Positions 5,048 to 64,000 of a DNA stretch of 64,000 nt are shown here, in pieces. The DNA lies in NCBI GenBank assembly GCA_015143295.1, contig CM026560.1:7008501-7072500 (forward strand), in the 5' to 3' direction. Both the position numbers and the translations under genes were made by a program. Position 1 is the stretch's first letter. Each line of letters begins with the position of its first letter. The notes below the pieces were generated by a model. That model did not search any database. It was not told the origin of the DNA and saw only the letters and a list, made by a program, of their open reading frames with translations. The DNA comes from Tetracentron sinense. Taxonomy: Eukaryota; Streptophyta; Magnoliopsida; Trochodendrales; Trochodendraceae.

Positions 5048-5233
5048 ACCGATCGCTCGGTCAGAACCAGCGATCGATCGGTCCAAAACCGATCGATCGG
5101 TATCTATCGACTGGTCCAAAATTTTGTATGGGAAAATTTTCCAGAGAGTGTGTTTTTGACCGATCGCCCGGTCATAAACACCGATCGATCGGTAGGCAAC
5201 CGATCGCTCGGTCATTACCACCGATCGCTCGGT
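5048..5233 (+). promoter_or_regulatory. Array of ACCGATCGATCGGT palindromes upstream of TATA
   Basis: Seven full boxes are visible at 5048, 5069, 5088, 5159, 5180, 5199 and 5220, with a half-box near 5106. Each is a 14-bp inverted repeat close to ACCGATCG(A/C)TCGGT. Within the two clusters the start-to-start spacing is 19-21 bp. The same layout, including the spacer with TGGTCCAAAATTTT between the clusters, recurs in three other gypsy LTRs in this window. The position just upstream of the TATA box suggests binding sites for a dimeric protein, but no factor can be named. Confidence 0.75.
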
Positions 5234-5296
5234 CCTTCGTGTTTTTGCTGATTTTTAGTATGGGCTTTTTGGTCTTTTCGTTCTCAGACCTTGGGG

Positions 5297-5307
5297 CTAT
5301 AAATAGG
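5297..5307 (+). promoter_or_regulatory. TATA box of the LTR promoter
   Basis: CTATAAATAGG is a near-perfect plant TATA box, 64 bp downstream of the last palindrome. Transcription probably starts about 30 bp further on, which would place the R region near 5335. Confidence 0.8.
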
Positions 5308-6201
5308 GGGTCCTACTCGAAATATTAAAATACTCCACCTAGTTCTAACCTAATTTGGCAAAAAGGGGGAGAAACCCTAGGGTTTTGAGAGAGGGTTTTC
5401 TTGGAGAAGGAGGAGATTGATAGGAGATTGCAAGAAAAGTTTGGGAAGCTTCTCCAAATCGTCTCGGGAGCGTTTTGAATCCAAGGGAGGGATTCCTAAG
5501 GTCGATATACTATCCTAATCAACTCTATTTTAAGGTTTGGTGAATGTTGATGTGCTAAGAATTGTAGAAATAGATAGTTGATGCATTTTCCCTAATTTTC
5601 TATGAAATAAGCTAATTATGGATGGGAATGTGAATGGATATGTGGATTGGAAATGTGGATAGAATGTATGGAGGATGGGAAATGTATGGAGGATGGGATT
5701 AATTGGTGGATGTGGATGAATATATTGATTGTATGGATGAATTATGGTTTGACGAATGCTTGAAAATATGGAGGAGAAATGGATTCATATTATACGTACA
5801 CAAGGTGTTTGTGAAAAGGCTTGAATGGATAAATGCTATTATACTCTTATGAAATGGTAGTAAATTGATTATGAATTGCGATATGAATTATGATAAGATA
5901 TGTATATGTGAATGGTTTGTTAAGTATGTCTAATTATTTGCATGGAAATTGATAGTCGGGAAGGTAAGAACTTAGAGGAACATCTCTCAAACCGGGAATT
6001 CTCTAACTATTTGGTATGGGACAGTATAGTGGAGTTTCCATGATGGGAGATCGGAACCTAAGCAATTACCAACTCGAATATTAATTTCGACACTTAAGCA
6101 CATATGCACGTGTATGTTAAGATAAGAGTCTCACAAGTCACACATATGGACTACAAGCATGAACATGGCATACGTATGACATTCTGAATAAGCATAAGCA
6201 T

Positions 6202-6350
6202 GGCATGGTCCGTATCCGCCAAGAACGGCATGTCTCATTACTGTGTGATCTGAATAAGTGCATAAGGCATGGTCCGTATCCGCCAAGAACGGCATGTCTC
6301 ATTACTGTATGATCTGAATAAGTGCATAAGCATAAGCATAAGCATAAGCA
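6202..6350 (+). repeat. 64-bp tandem duplication plus GCATAA run in LTR
   Basis: Two almost identical 64-bp units start at 6202 and 6266 (GGCATGGTCCGTATCCGCC at the start of each). A short run of AGCATA hexamers follows. This is typical slippage within an LTR. Confidence 0.85.
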
Positions 6351-6558
6351 TCTCACAAGCACGTGGTCTCGTAAGCATAAGTACCTCATAAGTGTATGGT
6401 TTTCTAAGTCTAAGATTCTCACAAGTACACGAGTCAAGGTGATGATATGATGTATATGCGCACACGTTCTTCCGCACTCTGATTATGTTATTATGCTATT
6501 GGATATGTTTCTGACTAAGTGCAGGTATATCATTATTGTTGGTTGGATTTTATATACA

Positions 6559-6714
6559 CTGAGTACCTTTGTACTCAGCCGGACTTTTGTCTTGGCAGGT
6601 ATAGAGCAGGAGTACACGGTGGAGCCGTGGGTTGAGGAAACATACATTGAGGAAGGAGGTGAAGGTGAGCCTTCTGAGGAGGGAGCCGGAGACTTGGGCG
6701 GCTACACCTCTTAG
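6559..6714 (+). other. Conserved LTR hairpin and acidic mini-ORF
   Basis: A perfect hairpin CTGAGTAC-CTTT-GTACTCAG (6559-6578) is followed by a T-rich stretch and GGCAGGT. A short acidic reading frame then contains PWVEETYIEE and ends TAG at 6714. The same order (hairpin, GGCAGGT or a similar T-rich tract, then VEE-x-Y-x-EE) is found in the gypsy LTRs at 45380-45501, 49798-49980 and 53869-54021. It could be a conserved RNA processing region rather than a real protein. Confidence 0.5.
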
Positions 6715-6995
6715 TTTACATTTCTTTTCTTTGAGAGAGTTTTGTATTTGACTTTTAGAGGATGTTGCCCAGTAGACTTCTTGTTAGTTGTGTATCAGAC
6801 TTGTTGGTTCTTTGTGAGTTGTATATATAGACCTCAGACTTGTGCAGGTTGGATTGGGTTTATATATCGGAATTTTATTACTCTCATTTTTGGAGACTCG
6901 TGTAGTAGCCTTGTATGCATGGTTTTAAGCAGGTTTAAGTAATGTGGCGATTCTAAAGTCCTATTTTAGCCTTGTGGGATTTTGGGGTCGTTACA

Positions 6996-7380
6996 CTAGG
7001 GGCCATGGTTTTAGGGTTTAAGTCCTGAGGACTCTAGGGCTAGGCTAGAGTTTCGGTTTAGGGTTACCTAGGGCTAGGGTTTTGACTTAGGTTTCACTAG
7101 GGTTCACCTTAGGATTGGACCTAAAGTCAACTGGGGGTTTACCTAGGGCTAGGGTTTTGACTTAGGTTTCATTAGGGTTCACCTTAGGATTGGACCTAAA
7201 GTCAACTGGGGGTTTACCTAGGGTTAAGTCTTAGGGTTTACCTAAGGTTAGGCTAGGGCTTACTTAGGGTTAGGGTTTGGTTCTAGGGTTTTCTAAGGTT
7301 CGACTTAGGGTGAGGCCTAAGGCTTAACTAGAGGTTTACCTAGGGTTTAGGGGACTTGGCAGGGGGTAACCATGGTTAAA
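6996..7380 (+). repeat. Telomere-like degenerate repeat with 75-bp tandem unit
   Basis: The stretch is full of TAGGG and TTTAGGG variants resembling the plant telomere repeat, but irregular. Two 75-bp units (7066-7140 and 7141-7215) differ at about one position. No gene is seen here. Confidence 0.7.
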
Positions 7381-7430
7381 AGGCTTTGACCATGGCTAGA
7401 TAGGGGTGTAAAAATTTGGTGCTTACAAGT

Positions 7431-7776: not shown

Positions 7777-7829
7777 GGTTACGAGTATTTCTTAAAAGGA
7801 TGAGAGTAACCCACTAGTCATTGCTAACT

Positions 7830-8430: not shown

Positions 8431-8559
8431 TCTACTCTTACCATTCACCAACCATCCGTCAATTTTGCAATGTTTAATGCACTTTCTCACAAAAAAAGTA
8501 GACAGATGGCTGACAGAGGATGAGAGTATGGGTTGAGTGAGAGTAGGGCTAGCATTCCT

Positions 8560-10250: not shown

Positions 10251-10339
10251 TGTCGCGACCCAACTTATCCCTCGAGTCTTGATGAAAATCTTAGACATTA
10301 TTAAACTATCTATTGGTCTTAAAAATTTTTTTTTGGTCA
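10251..10339 (-). repeat. 3' LTR remnant of the minus-strand gypsy element
   Basis: It starts TGTCGCGACCC and ends near GGTCA, next to a degenerate polypurine tract on the minus strand (10345-10385). Only about 45 bp align with the 5' LTR end at 22975, so most of the LTR has been lost. Confidence 0.55.
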
Positions 10340-11061: not shown

Positions 11062-11075
11062 TTTATTTATAGATC
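11062..11075 (-). promoter_or_regulatory. TATA box of the SIRE-like LTR
   Basis: The minus strand reads GATCTATAAATAAAG about 90 bp downstream of the nearest palindrome pair. Confidence 0.6.
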
Positions 11076-11163: not shown

Positions 11164-11752
11164 CATCCAGTCGGTTGGATGCAAGCATCTAGTCGTCTGG
11201 ATGATCGCAAAGCCCAGACGTTAAATCTGGACTTTCATCCAGTCGTCTGGATGCTAGCATCCAGTTGTCTATATGATGCTGATCATCTCCAAATCCATAT
11301 TTTTCAACTTTTAATGATTCAAATAGTTTCCAAATACCTTTGAATAACTTTATAAAGATAATTTTCAAAGTTTTATGATCATTAAAATATATTAGAATGA
11401 TTTTCTAATGGTCGTGAATGATTTGAAAAACTGGAAAATCGGTTTAGAGCCAAACTCACGTTTTGGCCTATCCAGTTGTCTGGATGGGACCATCCAGTCA
11501 ACTGGATGGTGCATTCTCTTGTACACATCTGATTTTCATTCTTTTAACACTTTGATTCAATTGCAAAACCTTTTTCCTTTGATTATAAATATGATAGACA
11601 TCTTTTTAAGATCATTTAAAAGGTATAAGATTGTTTTCCATTGATCTTTAGATTGATCAATGAGTGCAAACCGAAGAGTTTACGCATAGAGGCTTGAATC
11701 CATATTTCTGGCCTATCCAGTCGTCTGGATGGGACCATCCAATCGACTAGAT
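11164..11752 (-). promoter_or_regulatory. Four pairs of ATCCAGTCGACTGGAT-type palindromes
   Basis: Eight 16-bp boxes start at 11164/11187, 11237/11259, 11470/11492 and 11715/11737. The centre varies (GTCGTC, GTTGTC, GTCAAC, GTCGGT), while the ATCCA/TGGAT arms are mostly kept. Start-to-start spacing inside a pair is 22-23 bp. On the minus strand the array lies upstream of the TATA box at 11062-11075 (CTATAAATAAAG). Confidence 0.75.
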
Positions 11753-12878: not shown

Positions 12879-15055
12879 TGTTGGACATATATGCCCTCGA
12901 AAGCCAATAAGAGACTTTTCTATGTTGATTAGACAAGCATCATATTCACACAACCAACTATAAAGGGTATTTATATTAATTACTGTCTCATATGATGATG
13001 ACATAAAGTTCCATAGGTAACATTGTAGGAAAATCATGCAAAGGTTGCGAGGAGATATGATTTTCCGGTTCCTTGTAAACCTAATATTGTTCGAAGCCTC
13101 TAGAATACTGGTTGGGCGCCGTACTTCATCATGACTTGCACATGTGTAGTTCTATGAGATAGTGTGATGAATCTCATTCACAGAGAGTGGTGACTCTTGA
13201 CTAACATGTGAGTATATGTAGCAAGTACATAATACTGAACGGGGTCACTAGTGGATACCCTATGGAATACACTGTCAGATTATATTAGGGTTATCCATTT
13301 GACAAATTGTCCTTAGACCTGAGAGGTTAACATCTTCTCAGACATTTGTCTATATGGCTTTGATGTGCCAATCGGCAATGTCCAATACACAGGACTAACT
13401 CCGGGTACGTTGGGTCATGTACACTATGTTTGGAGAAGTGTGTAAACACTCAATAAGGAATCCACAACTCCTTAATTGGAGATAATGATATCAAGGTGAT
13501 ACTTGTTGAACTGAACTGTTAAATCCAGTACTGGTGCTTTTCGGTAAAATGGTCTTTATCGAAGTTGATATTTTTAATATGGAAAAGTATATATAAATAT
13601 ATATGTCAGTTCTTTTCTAATGTTTCTTCAAAAGTGTTTTGGAGGTTCTGTTCAATGAAAAGTAATCATGAGAAAAAGTTCTATTCATAAGCTAGGGACT
13701 AAGACAGTGGAATTGTTCCAATCCCGGAAGCTTACATGTGATATCGGAATGTGGAAGGATTTATTTGTAAATATATTGTGAGATGGTACTTACAAGCAAT
13801 TCTCTAATTTCTGGAGGTTAATCACATTGTGTTAATGGACATTAATTGTGATTGGTGGAAGTCCAGGGACTTAGATAACATTCTATGATCCTAATGGAGT
13901 TTTAGGAAAGGTGTTTCCTAGTAACAATGCTTCAACCAAAAAGGTGAAGTACTTGGTCCCACAACCGGAAATAGGAGATCCCTTTAGATCCCACACACAA
14001 GGACCTTCTTAAAGTATTTAATTTAATTTATAATTAAATTAATTAATTTCTCTAAGTAATCACTATATGGTATAGTGAAGCTCTAAAAGGTGGAATCACA
14101 TTAGATGTGAAAAACCAAATGGGTAGGACCCATTGGGAATTATTATAAAAGAATAATTCAAGTGACCAAGAGGGTTTTGGAAACCCTTTGGGCGTGTGGA
14201 GTGGGACCCACCTAGGGTGGGACGCCCACTTTATGGAGGAAGTTTTATTTTAATTAGTTTCTAATTAATTAACACCTTATTGGATAAGGTTAGTTAGTTA
14301 GTTAGTTAGTTACTAATTAAAGATTCTCTAATTATTAGGGATTCCATTAGTTGGTTACTAATTCAAGATTCCTTATTGGATAAGGATAAGATTAGTTACT
14401 AATGGATAAGGTGGGTTTCTTTTAAGATTCATCCTAATTGGATTAGGAGAATAATCAATAAAGGAAACTATTGAGGAATCCTAATTGGATTAGGATAAGG
14501 TTAATGAATTATAATTGGATTACAATTCAAGCAACCAAGAGGGAACTTATATAAAGGATTGGATGCCCAACCCTTTAAGATATATAATTCTCCAGAATTT
14601 TTTCTTCTCTCCCTCTCCTAAAACCTCACGCCCTCCCCTCTCTCTCCTTGAGGTGTACGGTCACACCCATCTCTCTCTTCTTTTGTCTTCTTGATTGGAT
14701 CTTGAGGAAAAGCAAGAATTCATCTTGTTCATCAAGAAAGGTTTTTGATCAATAAATATTTGATCTTTATTCAAGATTCCTAGAGCTGGAAATTTGGAAG
14801 GGCCATTAGCTTCTATTAGAGAAAGCTTTAAAGGAAAAAGAAGGTTCGTGTGAATCGACAGGAGACTTGACACTTGTGAAGTTTTGCGAGTACTATTCTA
14901 ACGTGGATTTGACTTAACAATTTCTAAGTCGCAAAGGTGAATGTTATTCTAACCTTCATTGAATAAAAATCAATTAGAATCTTAGTCAGATCTTGGGATT
15001 CGATGTATGCCCCCTAAGAACTGTGTTTCTAAAATTAAAAAGAGGCATACTTTCA
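12879..15055 (+). repeat. Solo LTR (TGTTGGACAT family, 2177 bp) with TSD GTAAG
   Basis: It starts TGTTGGACATATATGCCC and ends GAGGCATACTTTCA. A perfect 5-bp duplication GTAAG flanks it at 12874-12878 and 15056-15060, inside the integrase of the older gypsy element. An inverted second copy occupies 62577-64000 and a short third fragment lies at 46118-46195. A related family member forms the LTR at 53225-57545. No coding region is present. The superfamily is not certain; Copia is possible. Confidence 0.88.
14275..14495 (+). promoter_or_regulatory. AT-rich palindromes and TATA box in solo LTR
   Basis: Inverted repeats CCTTATTGGATAAGG (14275, 14371) and TCCTAATTGGATTAGGA (14432, 14479) lie just upstream of the TATA box TATATAAA at 14548-14555. 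The inverted copy at 63125-63365 has the same arrangement next to CCTATAAAAGG (minus strand, near 63091). Confidence 0.6.
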
Positions 15056-16153: not shown

Positions 16154-17269
16154 TGTGACGCCCCGAACTTGCGCCTAAGGAATCAAGTTTTGAGACGCGC
16201 GCTCGTTCGTCATAACCACGCATGCGAAAGACTTTACTCGCGAAAATGCGGAGATTTTGAACTTTTCTTATGAGCTTACATAAGCAATAACAACTGATCA
16301 TCACAATAACCCATAAGAAGCAAATGCGCTACCTCACTGGCTACAGTAGCCTTTACTTTTGGTGCTACAATTACGTCGGTACTCTTTCCAAACTCTATTA
16401 AGCGTAGCTCCTTGCTAATTGGCAACCGCTTCAAAATTTGAAGACACAAAATGAGAGGAGGGAGCTATAAAGCCCGACAAAATCCACAATCCATCTAGGC
16501 TATTTTCCACCTAGTAACAATCATCAATAACAATATAATATTACAATTTAGTTCTCATATTATAATAATATATCATATCGTAAACCACGACCCGAGGTCA
16601 CCCAGGGCTATTTCACCCTATCCTGAGGTTCTCAACCTCTAATTGCCAAGTTCACACAATCACTGTTCATGATAACAAATTACCGTTCTATTCTTGAGTC
16701 CACAGACTCATTATCCATTCCAAAATCCATTATCATCATACAACTCCATTACCATGACATCCCTTACTACCATGATAACTATCGAGATCATTTGGCTTAC
16801 ATCCAATGAAATCGAACCTTAAGTCCTTATACTTCGTACAATCTTGAGTCCCTAGACTCATCACACAATCCACATCTTGTACCATCTCAAGGCATATTTA
16901 AGTACAGTGATCCTTATTCATTTAGCTGTCTTGGGACATACTTAAGTACAACGATCCCCATTCCTCAACCTTTATTGGGTCATCTCTTGAATCTATGAGG
17001 CATTTCACCTCAAAGTATCTTGTCTATCGAAACTCAACCTTTAGGGTCATCCTTGAATCCACAAGGCCTTTCACCTCTAGGTCTCTTGTTACCCTCAGAC
17101 TCACCCTATCTTGGGTCATCCTCTGCTGAATTCAGAAGGCCTTTCACCACAAGGTACTGTTGGAACATACCGAAGTATAGAAGTCCCCACTCCTCAAGCC
17201 AACATTCATTTCTCCTGACAAAATCAGAAAGAATCACTGGATAACACTCCACCCACTCCCGATCACGCA

Positions 17270-17815
17270 CCTCGCCAAAGAGGAACCATGAATATTAATC
17301 CACTACTCCCAACGATCAGTCACGCACCTTGCCAAAGAGGAACCATGAATATTAATCTACCACTCCCGACGATTAGTCATGCACCTCGCCAAAGAAGATC
17401 CATGAATATTAATCCACTGCTTCCGATGATCAGTTATGCACCTCACCAAAGAGGATCCATGGATATTAATCCACCACTCTCGACGATCAGTCACGCACCT
17501 CGCCAAAGAGGATCCATAGATATCAATCCACCCACTCCTGACGATCAGTCACGCACCTCGCCAAAGAGGAACCATGAATATTAATCCACCAGTCCCGATG
17601 ATCAGTCACTCACCTCGCCAAAGAGGATCCATGAATATTAATCCACCACTTCCGACGATCAGTCACGCACTTCGTCAAAGAGGATCCATGGATATCAATC
17701 TACCCACTCCCGACAATCAGTCACGCACCTCGTCAAAGAGGATCCATGGATATCAATCCACCCACTCCCGACGATTAGTCACGCACCTCGTCAAAGAGAA
17801 TCTCTGGATATTTTT
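17270..17815 (-). repeat. Tandem array of about ten 57-bp units
   Basis: Units share CTCGCCAAAGAGGATCCATG and GACGATCAGTCACGCAC and recur every 57-58 bp. Because 57 is divisible by three, long repetitive reading frames appear by chance on the plus strand. It is an internal minisatellite of the LTR. Confidence 0.85.
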
Positions 17816-18640: not shown

Positions 18641-18758
18641 TCAAATCAACTTTTTGTCACCTTAGAGTGACGATCCATCATACCCGGGACCTAATCCGGA
18701 CTCCCCGAGGGTCCACTCGAAGTCCCTACATCACCACAACCCAAAAACCCATTTTGGG

Positions 18759-18840
18759 CACTGGCGATCGATCGCCAGTGCTGGTCGGTCGCTCAGGCAT
18801 TTGCATGTCGACGATCGATCGCTTATACGGGGTGATTGAT
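18759..18840 (-). promoter_or_regulatory. GATCGATC palindromes in the 3.8 kb LTR
   Basis: A perfect 22-bp palindrome with half-site CACTGGCGATC occupies 18759-18780. Further cores CGATCGATCG (18811-18820) and GATTGATC (18833-18840) follow. Unlike in the other LTRs, these lie about 600 bp downstream of the predicted TATA box on the minus strand. Confidence 0.5.
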
Positions 18841-19926
18841 CGTCCACTGCACAGTGAGCCTAAATCCAGGGTTTTTACACCTTAGACCGAGGGCTACACC
18901 CTTCTACTCATTTTCCATGCATATCCACCCTTCCATACTTCATCCACGGGGTCTTCGACCCACGCCAAACAAAATCCATACATTTCACATAAAATAATAG
19001 CTTAAAAGTATAGAGAATAGAGAAGAGGGAAGGGGTTTTACCTCTTTCACGTACTTTGAGACTCCAGGGGAAGAAAAGAACGCCGCTAATGTGCTTAGAA
19101 TAACGATCAACCACCAGGTAGAGCGTCTCTCTCTCTAACTCGCACTTTCTCTATAATTTTTCATTTTTCTCTCTCTACACACCAACCGAGGCACCGGGGA
19201 AGAAATCGGATGCCGCCAACACGTCAGGAGCATCGAAATATTCCAAGGTAGGTTCCCCTTTTCTTTTCTCTTCTCTCTCTCCCTTTCTCTCTTTCTAGAT
19301 GTTCTCTCTCTAGAAAATAGAGTTTGGCTGGCCAAACTCCACCGTGAGTAAAAATGTGCAGAATGAGGGTCTGACCCCTCTTTTATAGGCAAGTGGTGGG
19401 GTGAAATCATGTGCAAAGCACATGACCATTAATGGTGTGGAGAGTTGATCGGGTCAACTCGTTTGATCGGTTTTTCTTGATTTTTCCGTGCATACGGCTT
19501 CCAAAACCTTATCACACGAAGTTTGATTTTTACGAAACTTTAGGTGACAGACGGTCGTCCTCACGGTCAACCAACACGCTGTGGTACCAGCCGCACAGAT
19601 TTCTATTAAAATCCTCACGAAACATCGAGTACTAACGGAACTTCAGAAATTTTTAAATTTCCTATTTTCTCGATTTTCTTATGCATAAGACCTCCGCGGT
19701 CTCGCGAATCGATACACTACGGAACCAGTATGACAGTTTATCGTCCAGATAGTCGATCCATACATTGTGTACGATTTTCGAGAAAAAACACTGAAGTTTT
19801 ATCGGTACAATCCAATCCCGAGTAAAACCCATTTCTTACCAATTTAACAAACACTTAACTAATTAATCTCTGTTAAGGATCTATAATCCCATACTTTTAT
19901 TTATATTAAAATTCCGGGTCGTTACA

Positions 19927-21290
19927 TAATGTCTCCATGTTTTCAGTGCAAACACGATCTTTGCAAGCTCCAGATCGTGAATAGGGTAATTGTTCTCATG
20001 CAAATTTAACTACTTGGATGCATATGCAATAACCTTTCTATGCTGCATCAGTACACATTCCAATCCCTTATGAGATGCGTCACAGTAGACTTCAAATCCA
20101 CGTGCTTCAGAGGGGAATGCCAAAATGGGAGCTATGGTCAATCGACGCTTAAGCTCTTGGAAGCTCTTTTCTCTTGCTGGAGTCCACTCAAACTTGATTT
20201 TCTTTTTCGTCAACTCAAATAGTGTGGCAGCTATCTTTGAGAATCCTTCTATGAATCTTTGGTGATATCCTGCTTAGCCTAGAAAATTTCGAATCTCAGT
20301 GACAGTTGTAGGCCTTTCCATTTATTAACTGCCTGAATCTTAGATGGATCTCCAGAAATCCCATCCCTTGATACAATGTGCCCTAAGAAGGATACTTTAT
20401 CCAACCCGAATTCACATTTCGAGAATTTAGTGAATTATTGATTTCCCCTTGAGGTCCAAAGTGTGATCTTTAGGTGCTCTTCATGCTTCGCTCTGCTTGG
20501 CGAGTAAATGAGGATATCGTCAATGAATACTACTATGAATTGGTCCAGATATGGTTTAAAAAGCAGTTCATCATTTCCATGAATGCCACATGTGCATTGA
20601 TTAACCCAAATGGCATAACTAGAAACTTAGTGTCCATAAAGATCTGAAAGGCCGTCTTCTGAGTATCCTCCTTAATTTTTAGTTGATGATACCCCGACCT
20701 CAAATCGATTTTCAAGAACACTTGTGATCCTTGTAGTTAATCAAAAAGGTCATCGATTCTCGATAGAGGGTATCGATTCTTGATCGTTGCTTGATTCAAC
20801 AGACGATAATCAATGCACAATCACATGACCCCCTTATGTACAACACAAATAACATCAGTGCTCCCCAAAGTGAGATGCTCAGATGTATGAACCCCATATC
20901 TAAAAGATCTTGCAACTGAGTCCTTTAATTCTTGGAGTTCAATGGGAGCTATCTGAGAGGGTGCTTTTGATATCGGAGCTGTTCCAGGTAAGACCTCAAT
21001 CGAAAAGTCAATCTCTCGTGTTGGTTGGAGTCCTGGCCGATCCTCAGAAACACGCCTTGGAACTCTTTTACTACTGGAGTTGTACATCATCCCTTCATCC
21101 TCTTTATCTATTACCACCGAGGCTAAGTAGCCTATAGGCCTTATACACCCTTTCTTGATCATGTTTCGAGCCTTGATTGCTGAAATCAGTTTAAGTGTTT
21201 ATCCTAGAAATTTCATGCACAATAAACCCTGGAATGCTTGGAATCCTAAAAATTACTTTCCTAATACTAAAATCAACTACGGCATGGTAA
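19927..21290 (-). pseudogene. Gypsy protease/RT/RNase H, decayed
   Basis: The minus strand encodes RT blocks ([24 protein letters not shown]) and RNase H ([52 protein letters not shown]). Upstream is the protease-RT linker ([24 protein letters not shown]). Several stops and shifts separate them. RNase H ends abruptly at 19927 where the LTR was inserted. Confidence 0.8.
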
Positions 21291-22214
21291 TCAGTTAAAA
21301 TCATCAGCCCTTTTTGCCACACTGGAAGCAAGCTCCTGAAGCAACTCTACAATCTTTAGATTTGTGTCATTTCCTACCGCATTTCCCGCAAGTGGGTAGT
21401 GGTTCCCTTGTACTGTTCCCTTTCTTGGTATCTTCAATCTTCCTCTTTTTATTATCTTCTTCCATTGATCTTTGATTCCATGACTTACTGACCTTTTTCC
21501 TTTGTCTATAATTGACCTATGAAATCCCTCATGGACTCGCTCCACTTTCAAGGCTCTATCAAGCACTTCTGAGAAAGAGGTGAACTATATCGCTGCCAGT
21601 TATCCCCGGATTGCCGATTTCAGTCCCTCCTCGAACTTACCAGCTCTTCTTTGTATGTCCTCATACAGAACGAGTGGCAAATCGGGACAGCTTGTTGAAA
21701 CTTCCGTTCATACACACTGACCGACATGTCCCTTTGGGCCATTTGTAAAAATTCCATCTCCATCTTTTTCATGGTGGACGAAAAGTACTTCTCGTTAAAC
21801 AACTCCACGAATTTTGCCCACGTGATGGGGCCTTGATTCTCCGGGATGGACCTCTCCACTGTTGCCCACCAATGTTCAGCTCCACCCTCGAGCACATAAA
21901 TAGCAGCTAACTTGGCTTTATCCTCCTCTTCACAAGCCATTACTCGAAAGAGTTCTTCTAACCCCGTATCCAATTCTTTTCTACCAAAGGACCCTTAATC
22001 TCAAGAATGGCATGGGTTGTAGTCTTTTGTACTTCTCCATTCTACTTCCATTTATTTGGTCCAGGGCTGGGATGAGGGGAGCAGCGTTTTGAGCCTGCTG
22101 CTGTATGATTCTTGCTAGTTCTGCAATAGCCTCAAAGGCTCCAGCTACGCCGTTGTGGTTGGCTTTTCTGGATGTCATGTGTCCTATTTGAGGAAACATA
22201 CAATAACTTAGCAT
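21291..22214 (-). pseudogene. Gypsy gag, decayed
   Basis: The minus strand encodes a gag domain (LEGGAEHWW, WAKFVELFNEKYF, MSVSVYERKFQQ) and, near 21300-21400, a zinc knuckle of CX2CX4HX4C type with one position turned into a stop, followed by CFQCGKKG. Frames are broken near 21600 and 21980. Confidence 0.78.
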
Positions 22215-46195: not shown

Positions 46196-46197
46196 GT

Positions 46198-46749: not shown

Positions 46750-46945
46750 ACCGATCGCTAGAGATCGATTGGTCCACAACCGATCGCTCGGTCTAAATTT
46801 GCGATCGATCGGTATCTATTGATTGGTCCAAAATTTTCTTTGGGGAAAAATTCCAGAGATGGTGTTTTTAACCAATCGCTCGGTAAAAAACACCAGTCGC
46901 TCGGTAGGCCACTGATTGCTCGGTCATAAACACCGATAGCTCGGT
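46750..46945 (+). promoter_or_regulatory. ACCGATCGATCGGT-type palindrome array
   Basis: About eight boxes follow the same order and spacing as 5048-5233, including the central TGGTCCAAAATTTT spacer. Several boxes show C-to-T or G-to-A changes at CpG sites (ACCAATCGCTCGGT, CTGATTGCTCGGT), as expected from cytosine methylation. Confidence 0.7.
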
Positions 46946-47268
46946 CTTTCACATTTTTGCAGAATTCATTAAGGGTAAATGAGTCTTTTGACCCCCCTCT
47001 TTTCTGTATAAGCCTAACTCGTGGGTGAGGGTTTCATAAACCCTCAAAGCTCATATTTTGGGATTTTGGGAGAAAGAAGAAGGAAAAAAGCTAGGGTTTT
47101 GATACAAGGAAGATTGGAGGAGTGATTAGAGCTTAGATTTCATCCCATTCCTCGAGTATCCTCAAGATCTTCTCCAAATTTTAAGGTTAGTACACCCTAC
47201 TAACTACCTTAGTAACAACCTAGGATTTCTTAAGTGAATGTACATTGAATCTCTCCCATTCTCTTTTG

Positions 47269-48637
47269 TGTTGAAATATGCTATGCCCTAAAATATAAAC
47301 AAGATAATATGAATAGTGGAATGTGAAAAAATTCGTTGAATCCCAAATCAATGTTTGAGTCAAGAACTCACAAAACAAAGAGGGTGGTTAGGTTTTCCTA
47401 TAAGACTATCTACCCTTTTTATGATTTAACAATTAAATTATTAACTTTAGGGATGATAAAATTTAAGTGCGTAAATAGAAAACCAAGCAAACCACAACAC
47501 AAGAATTTTTACGTGGAAACCCTTCCGAAAAAAACCACGGGTCCTAATCCAGCCAAGAAAAATCACTAAGACAAAGTAAACAAGAACTTACAAGACTCGA
47601 ACTTGACTCATTCGGACTCGACACTTTGATCCTTTAGTTCTTCGTCCTCCACGCCTCGAAAAGTCATCACGTACTCTCAAGTCCCGTGATCAACCGTACC
47701 TGCTCGTACTTCTCTTTGTGTCTCGAAAATAGTCCACAATCTTCCGATCGATTTCCGTCAATGACGGCTTCGGATTCCACCGACCAAATCACACATCCAT
47801 AATCCGTCTCGGATCGATCTCCTTCACAAAAGGCTCCAGAACACTCCGGCCAAGTTTTTCTATCCAGAACGGGTTGATGGTTTGATTAAAATCAACTCCT
47901 AGATGGACTCTATCAATGGGAAGGTCCAAATAGGCTAGAATGAAGCATTGACTTGTAAAACTAGGATGAGAGAAGGATTCTCAAAGGGGAGGAGAGACAA
48001 TGCAAAATAGAGTTTTTATTAGCTCTAGAGATAGTTAAAAACCCTCTCAATACTCCCCCAAAGATGCTCTCCAAGAACTAGAAGGGTTCACACTTTATAG
48101 GGAATCAAAAACTAAGTTTAGAAGTTGCTAAAACCCAAGAAAAAACGTATTTGGAAGTTTTCCCATATCAGGGTCGACCCTGGAGGTTAGTTGGGTCGAC
48201 CTAAAGGTGATTTATATTGATTTTGGATGATTTTCCATATGTGGGCCGACCCAAACATCCTCCAGGGTCGACCCTAAGATATGCAAGGTTCTGCCTCATT
48301 TTGCCATACAAAATTTTGGCTCTTCAAGGTCGTACCAAAACGCCCAAGGTCGACCCTGAGGTAAAAAAAAATGTTTAAACTTCATTTTTAGCTTGCTCTC
48401 TTCACCTAGGGTCCGTATGGTTAGTGTAGGACACTTACCACCTCAGGCATCATATTAGAATTATTCTAAGTCAATTTTCACCTATAGTAGCATGGTATCT
48501 AGCTCACTTACCATCCTATGAAGGAAATGATCAACCGAGTCTTCAACTTCACTTGTCGTGGATGCTTGAAGGCAATGACACACGAGACACACATAGACAC
48601 CTAGACTTACTTGTTTTGACACCGGAATACACCAACA
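47269..48637 (-). repeat. LTR nested in the gypsy LTR (1369 bp)
   Basis: On the minus strand it runs TGTTGGTGTATTCC to CATATTTCAACA. No direct target duplication was found; flanks read TTTTG and CAAAA. It has a TATA-like CCTATAAAGTG on the minus strand (near 48095) with GGGTCGACCC palindromes upstream (48170-48357). The family is uncertain, possibly Copia. Confidence 0.55.
48170..48357 (-). promoter_or_regulatory. Three pairs of AGGGTCGACCCT palindromes
   Basis: Boxes start near 48170/48192, 48242/48264 and 48326/48346, giving spacings of 22, 22 and 20 bp within pairs. The array lies just upstream of the minus-strand TATA box near 48095. Confidence 0.65.
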
Positions 48638-49797
48638 CAAAAAACATGGACTTTATAGAATGTATGGATAGATGAGGGGTATAAGGCAATTGGATGCCGT
48701 ATGGGTGATGAATGTGTGTTGGAAAAATGGTGGATGGGCATTTCAAGCATAATGAATACACTTTATGTGGTTTGATGAAATGTATGCACTAAGAAATCAA
48801 AATGGAATGACTATAAATGTGTTGCATGCCATGTGTTCGATAAAATACCCAAATGAGAATCTAATGGATTTAATGAAGAAAATGAAAGTAGGCTTTATGT
48901 GATTTTTCCAAAAAAATGATAAGTTGATCAAATGCTCCATATGTTGTCTAAATTCTCGCATGATTTTATTAAGAATGAAAATGTTATACATCCTCTCTTT
49001 TGTTGCACATGCTACCATGATCACTACAAGTGCTACACACATGCTTCCTTTTATTTATTCATGTCATCATGATTATTACACATTGCCACACACACACCCA
49101 TGCATGTATTAACCGAGATTTTCCTAAAGTATAAAGTATACGAAACAACAAGAACAAGATTCTGATTCACGATATGAATGATAAAGCCGGACATCGGGCC
49201 GGTCAAGGGTAGGGCATATCCCTAAGATATGTCATACCTGGCTCATAAGGAAAACAAGTATGAATGATAAAGCCGGACATCGGGCTGGTCAAGGGTAGGG
49301 CATATCGCAAGATATGTCATACCTGGCTCACAAGAAAACAAGAAAACAAGGAGGTTGGTGTACATTTTCTATATATATATATTTCGTTGAAGGGAATTTA
49401 CATTCTTGGCTCACAAGTCGCTTCAAGGGCACTAACCTCTGGCTCACAAGTAAACAAGCAAGTCAAGTCAAGAACATGACAAGTGATTCTAAACAAGAAC
49501 AAGACAAGTATGCGTGATTCTTACGAACGAAACCAAGACAAGAACAAGTTTTCAAACATGAAAAGCAAGTTTTGAAAGAGACATGAAAGACTATTTTCAA
49601 GAATAAGACATGATTTTTAAAGTACGCGTTTTACCAGAGTTTTTGCATTCATTCACGCATATCAAGATTATCACATTGCTTTATTTTCAATGCTATTTTC
49701 ATATGCTGCCATTACTTGCTTTAAGTTGATGTGATGAACTATATCTTGTTGCCTTGTGTGATTGTTATTGCTATTGTTAGTTAGTGGCTTGTACTCG

Positions 49798-54021: not shown

Positions 54022-55399
54022 GTGTACCAAATACTAACCAACAGTCATAGCATACAGATAGCAATACATAGAGAAGGAAACAATTTACACATACAAAGCA
54101 GGAATAATTCATATCATAACAATAAAGTAAAGTAGTATATAATCATGCTTGCCTTCATAAAAGCCGATAAAACCCTTGAAATAATTGTGTGCTTGACTTG
54201 ACTTGAAATATCCTTTTCGTACTTGAAAGCTTGTCATGTTTGTCTTGCTTGATCTTGTCGAGCGTGTCGTACGTGTCATGCCATGCCATGCGTGTCATGT
54301 GTGCTTGCTTGTGATCATGTAACTTGTGAGATACACTTGTGAGATATCCTTGTGAGATGCGCTTGTGAGATGCCTTGAGAGGGAAGTGAGACCCTTCTTC
54401 ATGATATGTATGTACTTGCGAGGGAAGGGGGGCCCTTCTTTATGCTATGCACTTGTGAGTGAGGGGAGACCCCTCGTGGAATGTTTGTTCTTGTTTTCTT
54501 GTGAAAAATGAGGTAAAACATATCGTAGGATATGTCCCACCTCTCAACCTCGTTCTTGAAAGCCTCGGTAAATTCATATCATGCATGCCGTGCTCGTGGA
54601 TTCGTGTGCATACTTGCATTGGAATTTAAAGATGACATTTGGGGATTTCACAATATATAGCATGTTGCAAATTAAACAATAAGCATTTATGACATTTTAA
54701 AGAAAACAAGAACTCACACTATCATAAACCCTAACAAGTTCATAAGTAATTAAGCATGCATTTTCTTAAATTATCCTTCGTTTTGTTCACCTTGGCATTT
54801 CATCAAACATGGGGTGTGTCCATTATTTATTTCAACGTAAATCATGCTTTTCTAGGTGGGTTATGCTCACATCATACATGTTTGTTCATTATGGATACAA
54901 TGCCCTTCCCATTTCATTCATCACATCATCCACACGGCATCCATTTGCCAACATCCATCTCCATCTCCATTCACCATTCACACAACCCATCTCATAACAC
55001 ATATGTAGATGAAGGAAAACAAAGAAACATGGAGGAAAAGAGGAACTATAACTAGGAGGGTAGCAAGAAGTACCGACCTTGATCAATGAGGAAGAAAACT
55101 CCTCCAAAAATGTGCATGTAGATGCTGCCCTAGCTTGAGAAAAGTGCTCCTCACGAGCTTGAATCGGAATCTTGAAGCAATCCAAGCTTGAGGTGATTGT
55201 GGGTCTTGAAACCCCTTTGATTTCTCCCCAAAAGCAAACCCTAGGTTAGGGAACCCCTTCTCCTTTCTCTCTATCTCTCAAAAGACTCTAAGTGTTGTGT
55301 ATGAACCCTCAAATGTTCGGGCAAAGCCTTTAAGGCATGAGTGAAACGCCCAAAAGACGAAAACACCCTTAGTGAAATTTCTGCAAAAACACGAAGACC

Positions 55400-55575
55400 G
55401 AGTGATCGATGTTTATGACTGATCGATCGGTTGCCTACCGAGCGATCGGTGTGTTGACCGAGCTCTCGACCAAAAATCAACTCTCTGGAAAATTTCCCCA
55501 TACAAAAATCTTGACCAGTCGATAGCTACCGATCGATTGGTTTTGGACCGATCGATCGCTCCATTGACCGAGCGA
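55400..55575 (-). promoter_or_regulatory. ACCGATCGATCGGT-type palindrome array
   Basis: On the minus strand the boxes and the central TGGTCAAGATTTTTGTATGG spacer follow the same order as at 5048-5233. Confidence 0.7.
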
Positions 55576-57545
55576 TTAGTGATCTGCAAATCCAAACTAT
55601 TTTGGCCATATTGTTTGACTCGTTCGTCGGATTTTGACGATTCAACTTGCGTTGGATTCATACTTCGAAAAATAACATTTCTGACGTTTCAGAATTTCTA
55701 ATTTCTTCCTAATTTATTAATTGTACTACTTTAAAGGTAAATTGGCTACGAAAGTGCCATGTATTACGCATGAAAAAGTCTGGGGCTCTACACTTGTAGC
55801 TCACGAAAATCCTTAGGGACACTTCCTATGGGCTCACGGTTTGGAGAGAGAAGAGAAAGTGTGAAAAAAATTCTGGAGAATTGTCTCTCTTTATGGTGTA
55901 GGTGTTGGAGTATTTATCTATAACTATTCTAGTTATAGAAGACCTACTAATTAAGGAGTCCCTTTTGAAGAGGATTCATTAATTAAAATGGATAAGTCAA
56001 CATCCAACAAAGGGAGGAATCCTAGTCAAACTCGGATTCCACAACCACAAAGGGGTGGGCGTGAGCCATGATGGTGCGTGAGATTTGGGGAGTTTAACAC
56101 TCCTATTTGCATTCCAACTCCATGTCATCTTAATCCTAATTGCAATCCAACAATTGGATTTTAATTCCTTAATTAATAGAGTTATTACTCAATAATTATT
56201 CAAGTAACCAAATCTCAATCCAATTAGGATTTCCAAAGTGGGCGCCCCACCCTAAGGTTTAAACCCATGGGCTTGGGTCCCTATTAATGGGTTTATGGAT
56301 TTGGGTCAAATCCATTTCCCCTTTTATTATGTTAATTAAATAACCATCATTAATATCCTTTAATTTAAATCAACAATTGATTTAAACCTTAGATTAACAT
56401 TTAATGTATTTAATAGTGATTAACATTTAATCACTTAAATAATTGATTAAATTTTAATCAATTTATGAGCTTGTATTTCTTATGTGAGCATCTCCACAGA
56501 TTGCTCTGGGACATTCTTACCCTGACTTACCCAATGTTATCCCATTGACCCTAAACAGGAATTACATCAGAATTGCGAGTGACGTGAGATATCCATGTTG
56601 TAATTGAATCTCAATGTATGAACATTTAACCAATACGGATCCTGCCACATGAACTTTTAAATTTGATTTATCATTCCAAATACATTATCCCTAATAGGCC
56701 TTCGAGATTGACATACTATCTAACCCATAGCCCATTACACATCATCCGGGTTTCCAAGACTTATGATTAAGTCATGAGAAAGAATTTCTCATGAAAAACA
56801 TTTTGAGAAAATCTTTTAATAAGTATAATATATTTTAATAAAAGTATATTTCAAAACTTATTTTGATTTCAAAATCACCTGCGCAGGATTTGAACTTAAT
56901 CAACTGTCTTACCCAGAACTTGGATAATCTCTCAAATTAATGAGCATGGATTTCTTGTTTGAAATTCATCATGACTTGAACAACTTTTTGACTATTCAAT
57001 TGTCACCGTATTGTATTCTCGAAGTTAGAAAATACGTTGGTGGAATCAAAACAGTTAGATCAATGCTCAATCATAAATGAACACATCAGATCTAAGGATC
57101 ATCAAAACTGTTCAATGTGAATTAGAGACCAACTATCTGATAGTATGTTTATGCAAGAGGTCTCTCATTGAAAGCAATCAGTCAGTGTACATTTAAGCAC
57201 CCATATGCCGATGTGTAGTCTCCACTACAATAATTCGAGATAGAACTACATCTAAGCTATTGAGAACATCTTAGCATTCTGGTAGCCATATAGTGAAGTG
57301 CTCGGCTTCACCTACAGCTGTAACTATATAAGGTATAAGGAACTCGAAAGTTATATCTGCCAATGATAATCCAATCATATAACTTTCCTATGGACCTTTA
57401 TCGATATCTCATATCGTATAGATTATCTTATGATCATGGTCAATTACCCATAATGAATACACAATAGATTAAGAAGAAGTTTTTATTAGTCAAATTAATA
57501 AAAGTCTAACAATCTAAATGACTTTTCTGGGCATCATGTCTAACA

Positions 57546-59782: not shown

Positions 59783-61176
59783 TGATGCCCAGATAATGGA
59801 CCCTAGAGGGGGGTAAATAGGGTTTATGGCAAATTAAAAATTATTCTAAGTGATATTTGTAGAATTTAAAACTTATCACAACAATTACCAACTAAATTCA
59901 GAGATAATAAAAGAAAGAGAAGGATAGAGATACCAGACACCAGATATGTTATCGGGGTTCAGCAACTTGCCTACATCCCCGCCTTTAAGCTTTCACTTCA
60001 AGGATTTTCACACGATTCACTAATCGTTCTGTTCTTTTCCGGCAGAGAGCAAGCCTTATAATCCTTTTCCAGGCTCAGGAAGAACCTTTAATAATCCTTT
60101 TACAGGCTCAGGAGTAACCTCTTCAAGAGAGACTCTCTCTTGGATACAAGAAGACTCACTTCTTAACAGGGTGCAAGAATCCCTGATTCTTGACTTTCAA
60201 TAGAGACAAAGATTTGTGGATTTATAATCCGAATCGAAAGCTCCTTAATTGAGCTAGATAAGAATTGAATGCAAAGTTAACAATCTCTCAAAATTGATTG
60301 GAATTGAATGCTCAAAAAGAAAGGGATTAGGATTCTAAATAATCAATAGAAAATAGAGTATTGATTGCTGAGAGTTAGTGAGTGATGAATAAGCAATATG
60401 ATAGTGATTGGAATCCTTAGTATATTGTATTTTTATCATAAATCAGCTCTATTTATAGTTGGGCAATCAATATGGCCGTTGGGAGTAGTATTGAATGCGA
60501 ACTAGCTGTTTAAAAATAAAAGTTATAGGTTTTTCCCGCAGGCACTCATCAACGAGTGAGAAGGAATTTGGCTTGATTCGTCGCCGAGTGGAGACAGAAG
60601 CAATTGCTTCATTTTCCTGTCACCCACTCGTCGACGAGTCTCTTGTACTCGTCAACGAGTTCACTGAATTTTTCATTAAACTCATCATAATGAGACCATA
60701 AAGATGGGAATCATGCTAGGCCCCTTAGGCAATTAGATAATCAATATTTTAGTCATTTTTAGGGTCCAAGAATGATGTCCAAGTTATACTAGATCACCTA
60801 GGGTCTATCTAGGGATTCTATGAGCAATTCTTTTCCAATAACTTGAGGACTTTACAAGGTCCTAGACACTTTAACTTAGACACTAGTCTTCATGAAAAAT
60901 GATCTTCAATCTTGAATTTAAGAAGCTTTACTCTTGATAGATCTTCATGCATTGACTTTGAGCTTTTGGTGCTTCGTAGAAGAATTAGTCTTTGACTTTG
61001 ATCTTGATGACTTATGTTCTTCAATTCTTCGTATCTTGAAATTTGATTTGACATGTACTGCTTCTGCTGAAATTTTACAAACTCAAAGAAAATATTAGCA
61101 TATCAAGAGTCATTTCATTATTGTGGTTTCATCGAAACATTCTAGGGTACTTAGAGTTGTAACCTTGAGGCTAACA
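59783..61176 (-). repeat. Solo LTR, SIRE/Maximus-like (1394 bp)
   Basis: On the minus strand it runs TGTTAGCCTCAAGGTTACAA to CCCCCCTCTAGGGTCCATT...GGGCATCA. Flanks AATAC (59778-59782) and AATTC (61177-61181) match in four of five bases. Removing it restores the integrase reading across the site. It has ACTCGTCGACGAGT palindromes (60543-60660) and a TATA box (near 60450, CTATAAATAGAG on the minus strand). Confidence 0.8.
60543..60660 (-). promoter_or_regulatory. Four ACTCGTCGACGAGT-type palindromes
   Basis: Boxes lie at 60543-60558, 60576-60589, 60626-60639 (perfect) and 60647-60660. The last two are 21 bp apart. The array is about 90 bp upstream of the minus-strand TATA box. Confidence 0.7.
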
Positions 61177-61723
61177 AATTCTGGGTCCTGAATTGATCGA
61201 GTAGACCGCAGAAAGGGTCAAGGTCATCAAGGAGTGGTTGAAAGCTGCTCAGAATAGGCAAAAGAGCTATGCGGACACTCGCCGTAGAGACTTGGAATTC
61301 CAAGTTGGGAATCAAGTCTTTGTGAAGATTTTGCCGAGCCGAGGAATCATGAGGTTCAGGAAGAAAGGGAAACTCAGTCCTAGGTACGTGGGGCCATTCG
61401 AGATCATCACTATGGTTGGTGAGGTTGCTTACCGGGTAGCCATACCGCCTCACATTACAGCGGTCCATAATGTATTTCACATTTTCATGCTCAGGAAATA
61501 CATTCCGGATCCTTCCTACGTCATTGCTCTTGATCCCGTGGAGATTCGAGAGGATCTCACTTTGGTTGAGCAACCGGCTCAACTCTTAGATCATCAAGAT
61601 CAAGTCTTACGTACCAAGACTATCCCGTTAGTCCTCGTGAAATGGCAGCACCATTCTGCAGAAGAGGCTACGTGGGAGCGTGAAGCTGAAGTGAGGGAAA
61701 AGTACCCTCATTTGTTTTCTTGA
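61177..61723 (+). pseudogene. Gypsy integrase end and chromodomain
   Basis: This is the continuation of pol after the solo LTR. It reads openly through the GPF/Y-like module ([40 protein letters not shown]) and the chromodomain ([38 protein letters not shown]), ending at TGA 61721-61723. Confidence 0.88.
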
Positions 61724-61806
61724 TGTTCTTTTCATGTAATTTGTCATTTCTTGTTCTTTTGGTATCGTTCCAATTTCAGGGATGAAATTCTTGTAAGGGG
61801 GGAGGA

Positions 61807-62576
61807 TGTAGAACCCCGAATCTTCATTTCACTAAGTAGTGAATAGTGTTTGAATAGTGCTCAAAGTGGAGTCTTGTACACCGATGGGGTTATGCTAATG
61901 AAAATGTTTGGACATATGGTGTCCATGTGTTGATAGGTATATATATATATAGCCTAAAGGAGTGTTTTTGAGTGTACAAGGTGTTAGAGTTGGAATGGAG
62001 AAGGTCCATGTAGTAGAAAGAGGGTTTTGCGGCAGAAACAGGGGAGCACAGATCGCTCGGTGATAACACCGATCGATCACTCCAAAACCGATCACTTACT
62101 CTAGACCCCGATCGCTCGGTCAACTAGTGATCGCTCGGTATCTATCAACTGGTCAAAGATTTTGTATGGAAAAAAATTTCAGATAGGGTGTTTTCAACCG
62201 ATCTCTCAATCAAAACACTGATAGCTCGATAAGCCACCGATTGCTCAGTCCTGACCACCGATCGATCGGTTATATCCAGTTTTGCTTCATTCAGGGTGTT
62301 TAAGTCTTTAAACCACCACCCTTGCCTATAAAAGGCCCCAACTCGTGCCTAAGGGTTTCAGAAACCCATAGGGCATATTTTGAGAGAGTTTGAAAGGAGA
62401 AGAAAGGGGAAAGCTAGGGTGTTGCTCATGCTTGAAGAGAAGATCAAGATCTTCCCTTCTTTGGTGTTCTCCATCTAAAAGACTCGAGGTTCTCACTTGT
62501 TCTAAGCCTTTGGAATCGAATTCATCAATTTTACCAAGGTAGATACATTCTACTACCAAACTTGTGATAATACTAG
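61807..62576 (+). repeat. Gypsy 3' LTR, cut by an inverted LTR
   Basis: It starts TGTAGAACCCCG directly after a polypurine tract (TAAGGGGGGAGGA). It carries the palindrome array and a TATA box. It stops at 62576, where another LTR is inserted. Its start differs from the LTR at 46521, so the two may not be a pair. Confidence 0.82.
62051..62272 (+). promoter_or_regulatory. Palindrome array and TATA box of 3' LTR
   Basis: About nine ACCGATCGATCGGT-related boxes end at a perfect copy near 62257-62270. CCTATAAAAGGC follows at 62325-62336. Confidence 0.7.
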
Positions 62577-64000
62577 TGAAAGTATGCCTCTTTTTAGTTT
62601 TAGAAAAACAGTTCTTGGGGGGCATACATTGAATCCCAAGATCTGACTAAGATTCTAATTGATTTTATTCAATAAAGGTAGGAATAAAATTCACCTTTGC
62701 GACTTTGAAATTGTTAAGTCAAATCCACGTTAGAATAATACTCGCAAAACTTCACAAGTGTCAAGTCTCCTGTCGATTTACACGAACCTTCTTTTTCCTT
62801 TAAAGCTTTCTCTAATGGAAGCTAATGGCCCTTCCAAATTTTCAGCTCTAGGATTCTTGAATAAAAGATCTAATCTTTATTGATCAAGAACCTTTCTTGA
62901 TGAACAAGATGAATTCTTTCTTTTCCTCTAGATCCAATCAAGAAGACAAAAGAAGAGAGAGATGGGTGTGACTGTACACCTCAAGGAGAGATAGGAGAGG
63001 GCATGAGGTTTGAGGAGAGGGGAGAAGTTTCCAAATCTGGAAAATTTTGGAAAATTTTCTTATATCCAAAGCCTTGGACATCCACCCCTTTTATAGGCTT
63101 CATTGGTTGCTTGCAACCAAAGTTTCCTAATCCTTATCCAATAAGGATTCCTCAATTAGTTTCCTATTTGGTTTCTCCATAATTAATTAGGAATAATCAA
63201 AATAGAAACTAATCTCATCCATTTGTGTCCAACTAATCTTATCCTTATCCTAATCCAATTAGGATTCCTTGATTAGCAAGAAACTAATAGACTCCTTGTC
63301 CAACAAGGAATCTTTAATTAGTAACTAACTCTAATTAACTAACTAACCTTATCCAATAAGGATATTAGTTATTAGAAACTAATTAAATTAATAACAATTA
63401 TTATTCCTCCTTGAAGTGGGCATCCCACCCTAGGTGGGTCCCATCCACACGCCCCTAGGGTTCCAAACCCCTATTGGTCACTTGAATTATTCTTTTATAA
63501 TAATTTCCAATGGTCCTACCCATTGGGTTTTTCACATCGAATGTGATTCCACCTTTTAGAGCTTCACTATACCATATAGTGATTACTTAGAGAAATTAAT
63601 TAATTTAATTATAAATTAAATTAAATACTTTAAGAAGGTCATTGTGTGTGGGATCTAAAGGGATCTCCTATTTCCGGTTGTGGGACCAAGTACTTCACCT
63701 TTTTGGTTGAAGCATTGTTACTAGGAAACACCTTTCCTATACTCCATTAGGATTATAGAATTTTATCTATATCCCTGGACTTCCACCAATCACAATTAAT
63801 GTCCATTAACATAATGTGATTAACCTCCAGAAATTAGAGAATTGCTTGTAAGTACCATCTCACAATATATTTACAAATAAATCCTTCCACATTCTGATAT
63901 CACTTGTAAGCTTTCGGGATTGGAACAATTCCACTGTCTTAGTCCCTAGCTTATGAATAGAACTCTTTCTCATGATTACTTTTCATTGAACTGAACCTTC
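62577..64000 (-). repeat. LTR of the TGTTGGACAT family, runs off the window
   Basis: It is the inverted counterpart of 12879-15055, very similar along its whole visible length. On the plus strand it starts TGAAAGTATGCCTC, preceded by ACTAG (possible target duplication). AT-rich palindromes (63125-63365) and a minus-strand TATA box (near 63091) are present. Confidence 0.85.

Follow-up and report, generated by a model that had tools for sequence, protein, structure and literature searches.

What are the arrays of short palindromes that stand before the TATA box in the long terminal repeats (LTRs) of several retrotransposon families, and did each family come by its array independently? The question is raised by a 64,000-nucleotide stretch of the Tetracentron sinense genome (contig CM026560.1, positions 7,008,501 to 7,072,500; the window from here on), for which it had been predicted that LTRs of at least four unrelated families hold such arrays, different in sequence, alike in position and in a spacing of 19-23 bp, and the product of convergent evolution. 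The arrays exist. The sequence leaves about an even chance that they are enhancers of the unique 3' (U3) region of the LTR, built of clustered dyad-symmetric candidate protein-binding sites about two helical turns apart on the same face of the DNA and usually 70-110 bp before TATA.

An unsupervised scan for near-palindromic 14-mers, a cluster requiring at least 4 copies no more than 400 bp away to either side, found 7 clusters in the window against 2 in total over 100 dinucleotide shuffles of it, made in 500-bp blocks. The window is thus far above its shuffled versions, and the prediction of short-palindrome arrays in at least four LTR families, mostly just upstream of a TATA-like box, is borne out. 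Six of the seven clusters are LTR arrays, four of them in a gypsy family, F1 (units ACCGATCG[AC]TCGGT), and one each in families F2 (ACTCGTCGACGAGT) and F5 (ATCCAGTCGWCTGGAT). The seventh, at 18763, is unassigned; there a perfect 24-bp palindrome (GCACTGGCGATCGATCGCCAGTGC; window 18758-18844) has related TCGA-centred sites some 20-50 bp off. Family F3 (GGGTCGACCC) gives 3 copies in the window by the 14-mer scan and 5 by its 10-mer, and the palindrome of family F4 (CCTTATTGGATAAGG) is odd-length and so invisible to that scan. Over 304 kb of sampled DNA, that is the window and 240 kb from six places chosen blind, the same scan yielded 28 palindromic clusters (a few AT-rich or tandem-repeat ones and both LTRs of some elements included) against 7 clusters of mirror-symmetric words. 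Palindromic arms of at least 5 were present in 35 of 165 consensus words of dispersed short-repeat clusters, where shuffled words would give 8.3, some of the 35 being AT-rich and meaningless. AT-rich clusters from the unsupervised lists (c1a 6357 and window 7984, for example) were dropped as low complexity. The sampled stretches hold F1 and F3 again together with additional families, M (TTAACCATGGTTAA), C (ACAACG-N4-CGTTGT) and S5 (CCAGTCGACTGG), which like G (GGCCTACCGGGCC) were met outside the window only.

The arrays are clear once mismatches are allowed, and poorer in exact copies than the original prediction had it. Exact units in the window amount to 3 for F1 (in two LTRs), 1 for F2, 2 for the F3 12-mer, 2 in each of the two F4 copies and none for F5; mismatch-tolerant units to 7, 7, 6 and 6 in the four F1 LTRs, 8 for F5, 4 for F2, 5 for F3 and 4 for F4. 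Among the palindromes first proposed, ATCCAGTCGACTGGAT has no exact copy and 8 copies with 1-4 mismatches, all in one LTR (11165-11752), ACCGATCGATCGGT is exact in two of the four gypsy LTRs (3 copies), and ACTCGTCGACGAGT occurs once exactly and three times in degraded form. The LTR that had been placed at 47269 more likely spans about 47324-48656 on the minus strand, to judge from its relatives. Across the 1.16-Gb genome exact pairs far outnumber reversed-pattern controls, with 2192 against 0 for F1 and 1917 against 0 for M; GGGTCGACCC pairs of F3 that lie 15-30 bp apart number 1528 against 1.

Spacing within the arrays is far from random. Gaps of 19-23 bp make up 30 of 54, where random placement over the same span would give 7.3, in a test that took one author-chosen array per family (that of F3 from outside the window, and with 2 of the 8 C units left out); the excess is above chance separately in F1, F3, F5, C, M and G, six of the nine families. 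Among 50 listed GGGTCGACCC pairs, all from contig C1, partly related copies and counted by hand, the spacing was 20 bp in 18, 21 in 6, 22 in 25 and 23 in 1, anything from 15 to 30 being allowed. Exact gaps of 20 and 62 bp occur in 16 of 20 F3 loci under free unit detection, a fairer figure than that of an anchor-based search, which permits only near-20 and near-62 gaps. The nearest unit starts 78 and 70 bp from TATA in two of the four F1 LTRs, 94 bp in F5, 87 in F2 and 111 in S5 (whose array adjoins the TATA box in a presumed LTR), 72 bp in the window copy of F3, with 91 and 101 in c2a and c3a, and about 70 and 37 bp in F4. A place directly upstream of TATA suits most families, not all.

That the palindromes differ from family to family holds for the arms; the CpG-centred ones have a common centre, better put as TCG. 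Symmetric units of F1, F2, F3, F5 and S5 are centred on TCGA throughout. Over 123 F1 units the second pair is T-C in 60, T-A in 56, G-A in 5 and something else in 2, so that TCGC is about as common as TCGA; about half of the units are quasi-palindromes (ACCGATCGCTCGGT), with the asymmetry nearly always in one direction (60 vs 5). A TCGA centre is seen in 1 of 8 F5 units (TCGT in 3 of 8), 1 of 4 in F2 and 3 of 6 in S5, and is absent from C, M, G and F4. In the F3 10-mer (core GGTCGACC) the outer pair alternates between G-C and C-G with asymmetric intermediates, most strongly at slots +61 (p 0.0045) and +83 (p 0.003), values which are the best of 54 comparisons and would not survive correction; 2 of the 26 F3 stretches, L031 and L029b, have no anchor.

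The families fall into both superfamilies. F1 has RVT_1 and integrase in one pol frame beside its LTR, the mark of Ty3/gypsy, and may belong to the Del lineage (Del/Tekay). The C array sits in LTRs whose element encodes RVT_1, RT_RNaseH and RVT_3 domains and represents a second gypsy lineage, which we take to be Tat-like. The LTRs of F2 and F5 start with TGTTAGCC and carry at the other end a CCCCCC tract (59813 in F2, 10468 in F5), the poly-C Sirevirus mark. For F3 the sequence points to Ty1/copia through a relative, L029: its two LTRs, each about 1490 bp long, are 91.4% identical, and besides a TTGGTATCAGAGC primer site it has a 124-aa frame matching Retrotran_gag_2 (E 2e-10), the scanned frames being without reverse transcriptase. 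The poly-C signal was not seen in the last LTR bases of L029 and c3a (two LTR ends), nor, in two F3 elements, was the polypurine tract AGGGGGAG that Sireviruses have 10 bp ahead of their 3' LTR; in its place L029 has AAAGGGGAAGA beside TGTAAAGTCC, and c3a a similar TGGGGAGA. The M array lies in a 3,047-bp LTR pair, 99.93% identical. A second array in the same 3-kb LTR (L008:6671-6843, or c1a 36671-36843) repeats GCCTACCGGGC at steps of about 20 bp, its units flanked by G..C or A..T, complementary in 12 of 12 in two LTRs (p 0.016).

Were the arrays then acquired independently? For F1 and F3 apparently not. Their LTRs do not align over the whole length and have a common segment, TTTGTATGGGGAAATTTTCCAGAGAGTGAAATTTT, which scored 43 against a maximum of 37 in 60 shuffled sets, and in both this linker sits between upstream and downstream dyad blocks; a 20-base form of it has 6898 exact copies in the genome and none of the reversed control. 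Counted from TATGG, the F1 dyads lie near -72, -51, -32, +39, +60, +79 and +100 and those of F3 at -43, -23, +39, +61, +83 and +105. The F1 linker was found with at most 5 mismatches in 17 of 20 loci, of which 15 have the +39 dyad and 16 the -32 dyad; the other three (L053, L055, L056) are short stretches, possibly cut off, and L002 was excluded from the F1 alignment, its flanks being the same as those of L001. The F3 linker is often degraded, and 12 of 20 loci combine a linker of at most 6 mismatches in 18 with a dyad at +39, where the four F3 arrays in the U3 comparison also place one. The first 50 places listed on contig C1 supplied the 20 F3 loci and 8 of the F1 loci. Because a homologous U3 segment is common to both, the layouts of F1 and F3 are probably not independent: the linker is probably a piece of U3 of common ancestry across superfamilies, with the dyads replaced afterwards, convergence on a composite site being less likely. 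A common promoter stretch also joins F5 and S5 (score 42, with shuffles reaching 37 at most), so the idea of unrelated LTRs converging stands only in part. F2 with S5 scored 32, inside the shuffle range, and nothing tied M or C to F1 and F3 above shuffles in the U3 comparison. An 11-mer, CATTTAATGCA, or close forms of it occur in the U3 of F1, C and S5, with scores below the shuffle mean, and may be chance. The linker had 0 matches in viral contigs, which says little about other plants. More speculatively, and in our view improbably, inter-superfamily recombination would have given a gypsy and a copia lineage a common U3 control cassette (of linker, dyad positions and TATA), the sites having been swapped in concert around the common TCG centre as a recognition code, with families choosing or escaping to different members of one dimeric-protein family within a fixed spatial grammar.

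The near symmetry of the sites, their spacing by two helical turns, the freedom of the spacers and the location ahead of TATA agree with dimeric proteins lined up along the same face of the DNA. Should the arrays be U3 enhancers, each dyad would be bound by a dimer, most likely of a host DNA-binding protein, and adjacent dimers would act together to bring in the promoter machinery. Different element lineages would drift or be driven to other arm sequences with the array layout retained, arrays would grow by direct duplication (F1, M) or inverted duplication (F2, F3, F5), and long hairpins, with any small RNAs made from them, would be by-products. Several points weigh against this. The 19-23 bp phasing holds for F1, F3 and F5 and, outside the window, for C, M and G, and is not above chance in F2, S5 and F4. 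The C array is about 340 bp from its TATA box, none was found for M, and TATA[AT]A was found for two of the four gypsy LTRs of the window within the ranges scanned. Most F5 units, like about half of those of F1, break symmetry at one pair, which is odd for a strictly symmetric dimer. In favour of enhancers, the layout persists as the spacers change, with a mean column identity over 24 loci of 0.71 in the octamers, 0.57 in the linker, 0.49 in the spacers and 0.38 downstream; these figures were, however, obtained with octamers and 14-mers that had served to find the units, which raises identity and sharpens the edges, and from an ungapped alignment although exact spacing holds in only 13 loci. 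Duplication and common descent rather than selection may account for an inherited spacing, and co-variation of the spacers calls for a further process beyond binding sites.

That co-variation belongs to a symmetry at the level of the whole array, which agrees with inverted duplication followed by homogenisation, or with selection acting on structure, and it has strengthened the structural option left open by the original prediction. The F2, F3 and F5 arrays each fold as one long inverted repeat, and stretches that hold arrays give stronger folds than their shuffled versions (z -3.6 and -5.3 for F1, -5.5 for F2, -8.7, -11.4 and -12.2 for F3, -9.6 for F5, -7.1 for C, -5.2 and -4.8 for M, -5.0 for S5 and -3.2 for F4), with +0.3 in a neighbouring control region; the milder values, those of F1 and F4, say little, because a non-array stretch, L015:686-750, reaches -3.9. 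Spacers 1 and 3 of F3 match as reverse complements better when taken from the same locus than from different ones (10.5 of 14, where permutation gives 8.4 and 0 of 20000 permutations are as high, over 13 distinct loci), up to 14/14 in c2a41 and 13/14 in L036 and L029a. The whole F3 block keeps 423 of 559 pairs, where permutation gives 393.6, and its spacers by themselves keep 191 of 273, where it gives 162.4 (p 2e-4 in each case); when the partner is slid by 1-3 bases, 78-182 of the 381 pairs in the inner part of the block are left. For this 13-locus block 8 of the 21 four-unit loci were excluded, their spacing not being exactly 22/22/22, and identical rows were counted once. Thinned to 5 loci of less than 80% identity the signal is 62 of 105 against 56 (p 0.12, not significant), and because significance is lost in this way the figure may be inflated by shared descent. 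Co-variation of the flanks, in 27 tests, was clear at F3 position 1 (p 0.0002), weak at F3 position 2, G position 1, F5 position 3 and M position 2 (p 0.016-0.048), and not significant in the remaining tests, those of F1, C, F2, S5 and F4 all included.

One way to take these data is that the folded structure is itself the function, the array acting as a long hairpin in the 3' end of the RNA or as a DNA cruciform for packaging, RNA processing or silencing, with the single palindromes as its parts. Good folding, the F3 spacers that co-vary and so keep a long inverted repeat, and the palindrome clusters of maize Sireviruses that passages of PMC5311732 and PMC10760457 describe as small-RNA hot spots all speak for it. 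A hairpin needs no strict two-turn spacing, however, the spacers of the F1 blocks are not complementary, the co-variation of F3 fades on thinning, and an RNA signature is missing: in the sense strand of F3 there are 29 G-U against 46 A-C pairs, hence no G-U excess, and C>T and G>A changes number 8 and 8 in the F1 stems. The lack of a G-U excess fits DNA, not RNA, as what counts, and structure as the function seems rather unlikely. It also seems unlikely that the arrays are mostly mutational, with palindromes arising and spreading by tandem and inverted duplication, template switching in reverse transcription or replication correcting imperfect inverted repeats, and no function needed. Direct duplication is indeed seen in the F1 spacers and M blocks, spacers 1 and 3 of one and the same F3 locus are each other's reverse complement, and template switching predicts co-variation free of G-U bias. 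What mutation leaves unexplained is the higher conservation of the CpG-rich octamers over the spacers (the octamers having been used in the search), the placement before TATA, and the same scaffold and layout with different units in F1 and F3. Slippage alone, raised in the original prediction, is rejected for F3, where the spacers are diverse, and not for F1 and M, and duplication did build part of the arrays. Very improbable is a third idea, that the dyads serve a DNA-binding protein encoded by the element itself, in family-specific protein and site pairs, as formed by the anti-silencing proteins of some plant DNA transposons. The arms are family-specific, and the Tat-like element has two antisense frames downstream of pol (L023:249-1361, minus strand, 371 aa; L023:1352-2203, minus strand, 284 aa), of which the 371-aa one, the only one scanned, has no Pfam match; against this, no extra frame is evident in the F1 pol frame, no systematic search having been made in F1 or F3.

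Table 1. Arrays and associated features in the window, with nucleotide positions counted from its first letter
Feature	Position	Strand	Details
F1 array	5048..5233	+	7 units ACCGATCG[CA]TCGGT, spacing 21,19,71,21,19,21; gypsy LTR starting about 4556
Linker TATGGGAAAATTTTCCAGAGAG	5127..5148	+	separates two F1 dyad blocks; common to copia family F3
TATA box of F1 LTR	5298..5303	+	78 bp past start of last unit
F1 pol frame	1160..4510	+	protease, RVT_1, RNaseH, integrase H2C2, SH3_Tf2-1; Ty3/gypsy
F1 array	46760..46945	+	degraded units, spacing 19,21,71,21,19,21; TATA[AT]A not found in 46900-47100
F1 array	55397..55580	-	degraded units; TATA[AT]A not found in 55200-55420
F1 array	62048..62270	+	TATA at 62327
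F5 array	11165..11752	-	8 degraded ATCCAGTCGWCTGGAT copies in 22-bp pairs; Sirevirus-like LTR, poly-C near end; TATA at 11071
F2 array	60544..60660	-	4 units of ACTCGTCGACGAGT (1 exact), spacing 32,50,21; Sirevirus-like LTR; TATA at 60457; one long hairpin
F3 array	48171..48356	-	5 units of GGGTCGACCC, spacing 22,50,22,82; LTR about 47324-48656; TATA at 48099; one long hairpin
F4 array	14275..14494	+	CCTTATTGGATAAGG / CCTAATTGGATTAGG, 4 units, unphased; TATA-like at 14548
F4 array, inverted copy	63132..63361	-	TATA at 63095

Apart from the arrays, the window has a 57-bp tandem repeat of about 9 copies with 87% matches (17263-17802) and a pair of inverted repeats some 700 bp long that are 84% alike and lie 2.2 kb apart (25455-26169 and 28409-29098). 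Elsewhere in the sampled DNA, a 393-aa frame with a strong HSP70 match (L014:5080-6258, minus strand) lies a few kb from an F3 array, and L022:850-1300 (c4a 20850-21300) holds many TATCCGTGGAT and CCACGGA motifs in both orientations beside CACTACAAGAAA, which we take to resemble the subterminal repeats of CACTA transposons.

The array layout is known from Sireviruses. In the passages of the 2010 account that bear on it (Bousios et al., PMC2829016), Sirevirus LTRs carry repeated motifs (RM boxes) that are palindromic, family-specific, multi-copy and clustered shortly upstream of a conserved TATA; they are there called Sirevirus-specific and absent from classic copia, and have a CGG-CCG core with one exception, Tnd-1; in that account the RM-box clusters also mark out CpG islands. 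The dyad-symmetric repeats clustered before TATA in F2, F3, F5, S5 and two of the four F1 LTRs of the window are alike, and the Vitis motif given in those passages, CGGTCGACCG, is an F3 variant here (L044). In contrast to RM boxes, the present arrays extend to Ty3/gypsy and to a copia family in which neither of the two Sirevirus marks looked for was seen, and have a TCG centre, a measured two-turn spacing and a scaffold common across superfamilies; in those passages a TCGA centre is found in 2 of 13 published Sirevirus motifs, those of Vitis and Tnd-1. The CGG-CCG core is absent in F2, F5 and F1 and present in some F3 units only (CGGTCGACCG), and against the RM-box figure of at least 8 copies per element there are 8 in F5, up to 7 per LTR in F1, 4 in F2 and 4-9 in F3 (20 loci), F2 and F5 being single LTRs. 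The maize Sirevirus regions to which small RNAs map in the passages of PMC5311732 and PMC10760457 are likewise LTR cis-regions with strong predicted folding; the difference from what those passages treat is that here other lineages are concerned, from sequence alone, with arms and spacers compared across loci. The CpG islands of Del LTRs (PMC4029996) are likewise a CpG-rich variable LTR segment in a gypsy lineage; that paper's text is without the string "palindrom", and the cluster holding all its eudicot elements is predominantly without a CpG island. Cis-regulatory regions of transposable elements are often repeat arrays, sometimes palindromic, according to passages of PMC10760457, which describe no gypsy-copia scaffold with exchanged palindromes. 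No account of such arrays in plant Ty3/gypsy LTRs, or of a gypsy-copia cassette, was found among the titles and abstract openings of open-licence papers in partial lists; a search with the exact motifs gave no LTR paper among the matches listed, and PMC2829016 was, again among the matches listed, the one paper where the F3 variant turned up in a relevant context.

The layout known from Sireviruses is therefore seen here in further groups, two of which have a common scaffold with different motifs, and this turns a Sirevirus feature into a testable rule for LTR promoters, of fixed spacing, common centre and family-specific arms, for which the F1 and F3 pair is a ready natural swap experiment. 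Should it be template switching that maintains the inverted repeats, this mutational process would have left a clear trace of itself in the arrays. And if it is true that a protein family reads the arms, they would show plant genomes and retrotransposons sorting transcriptional access family by family.

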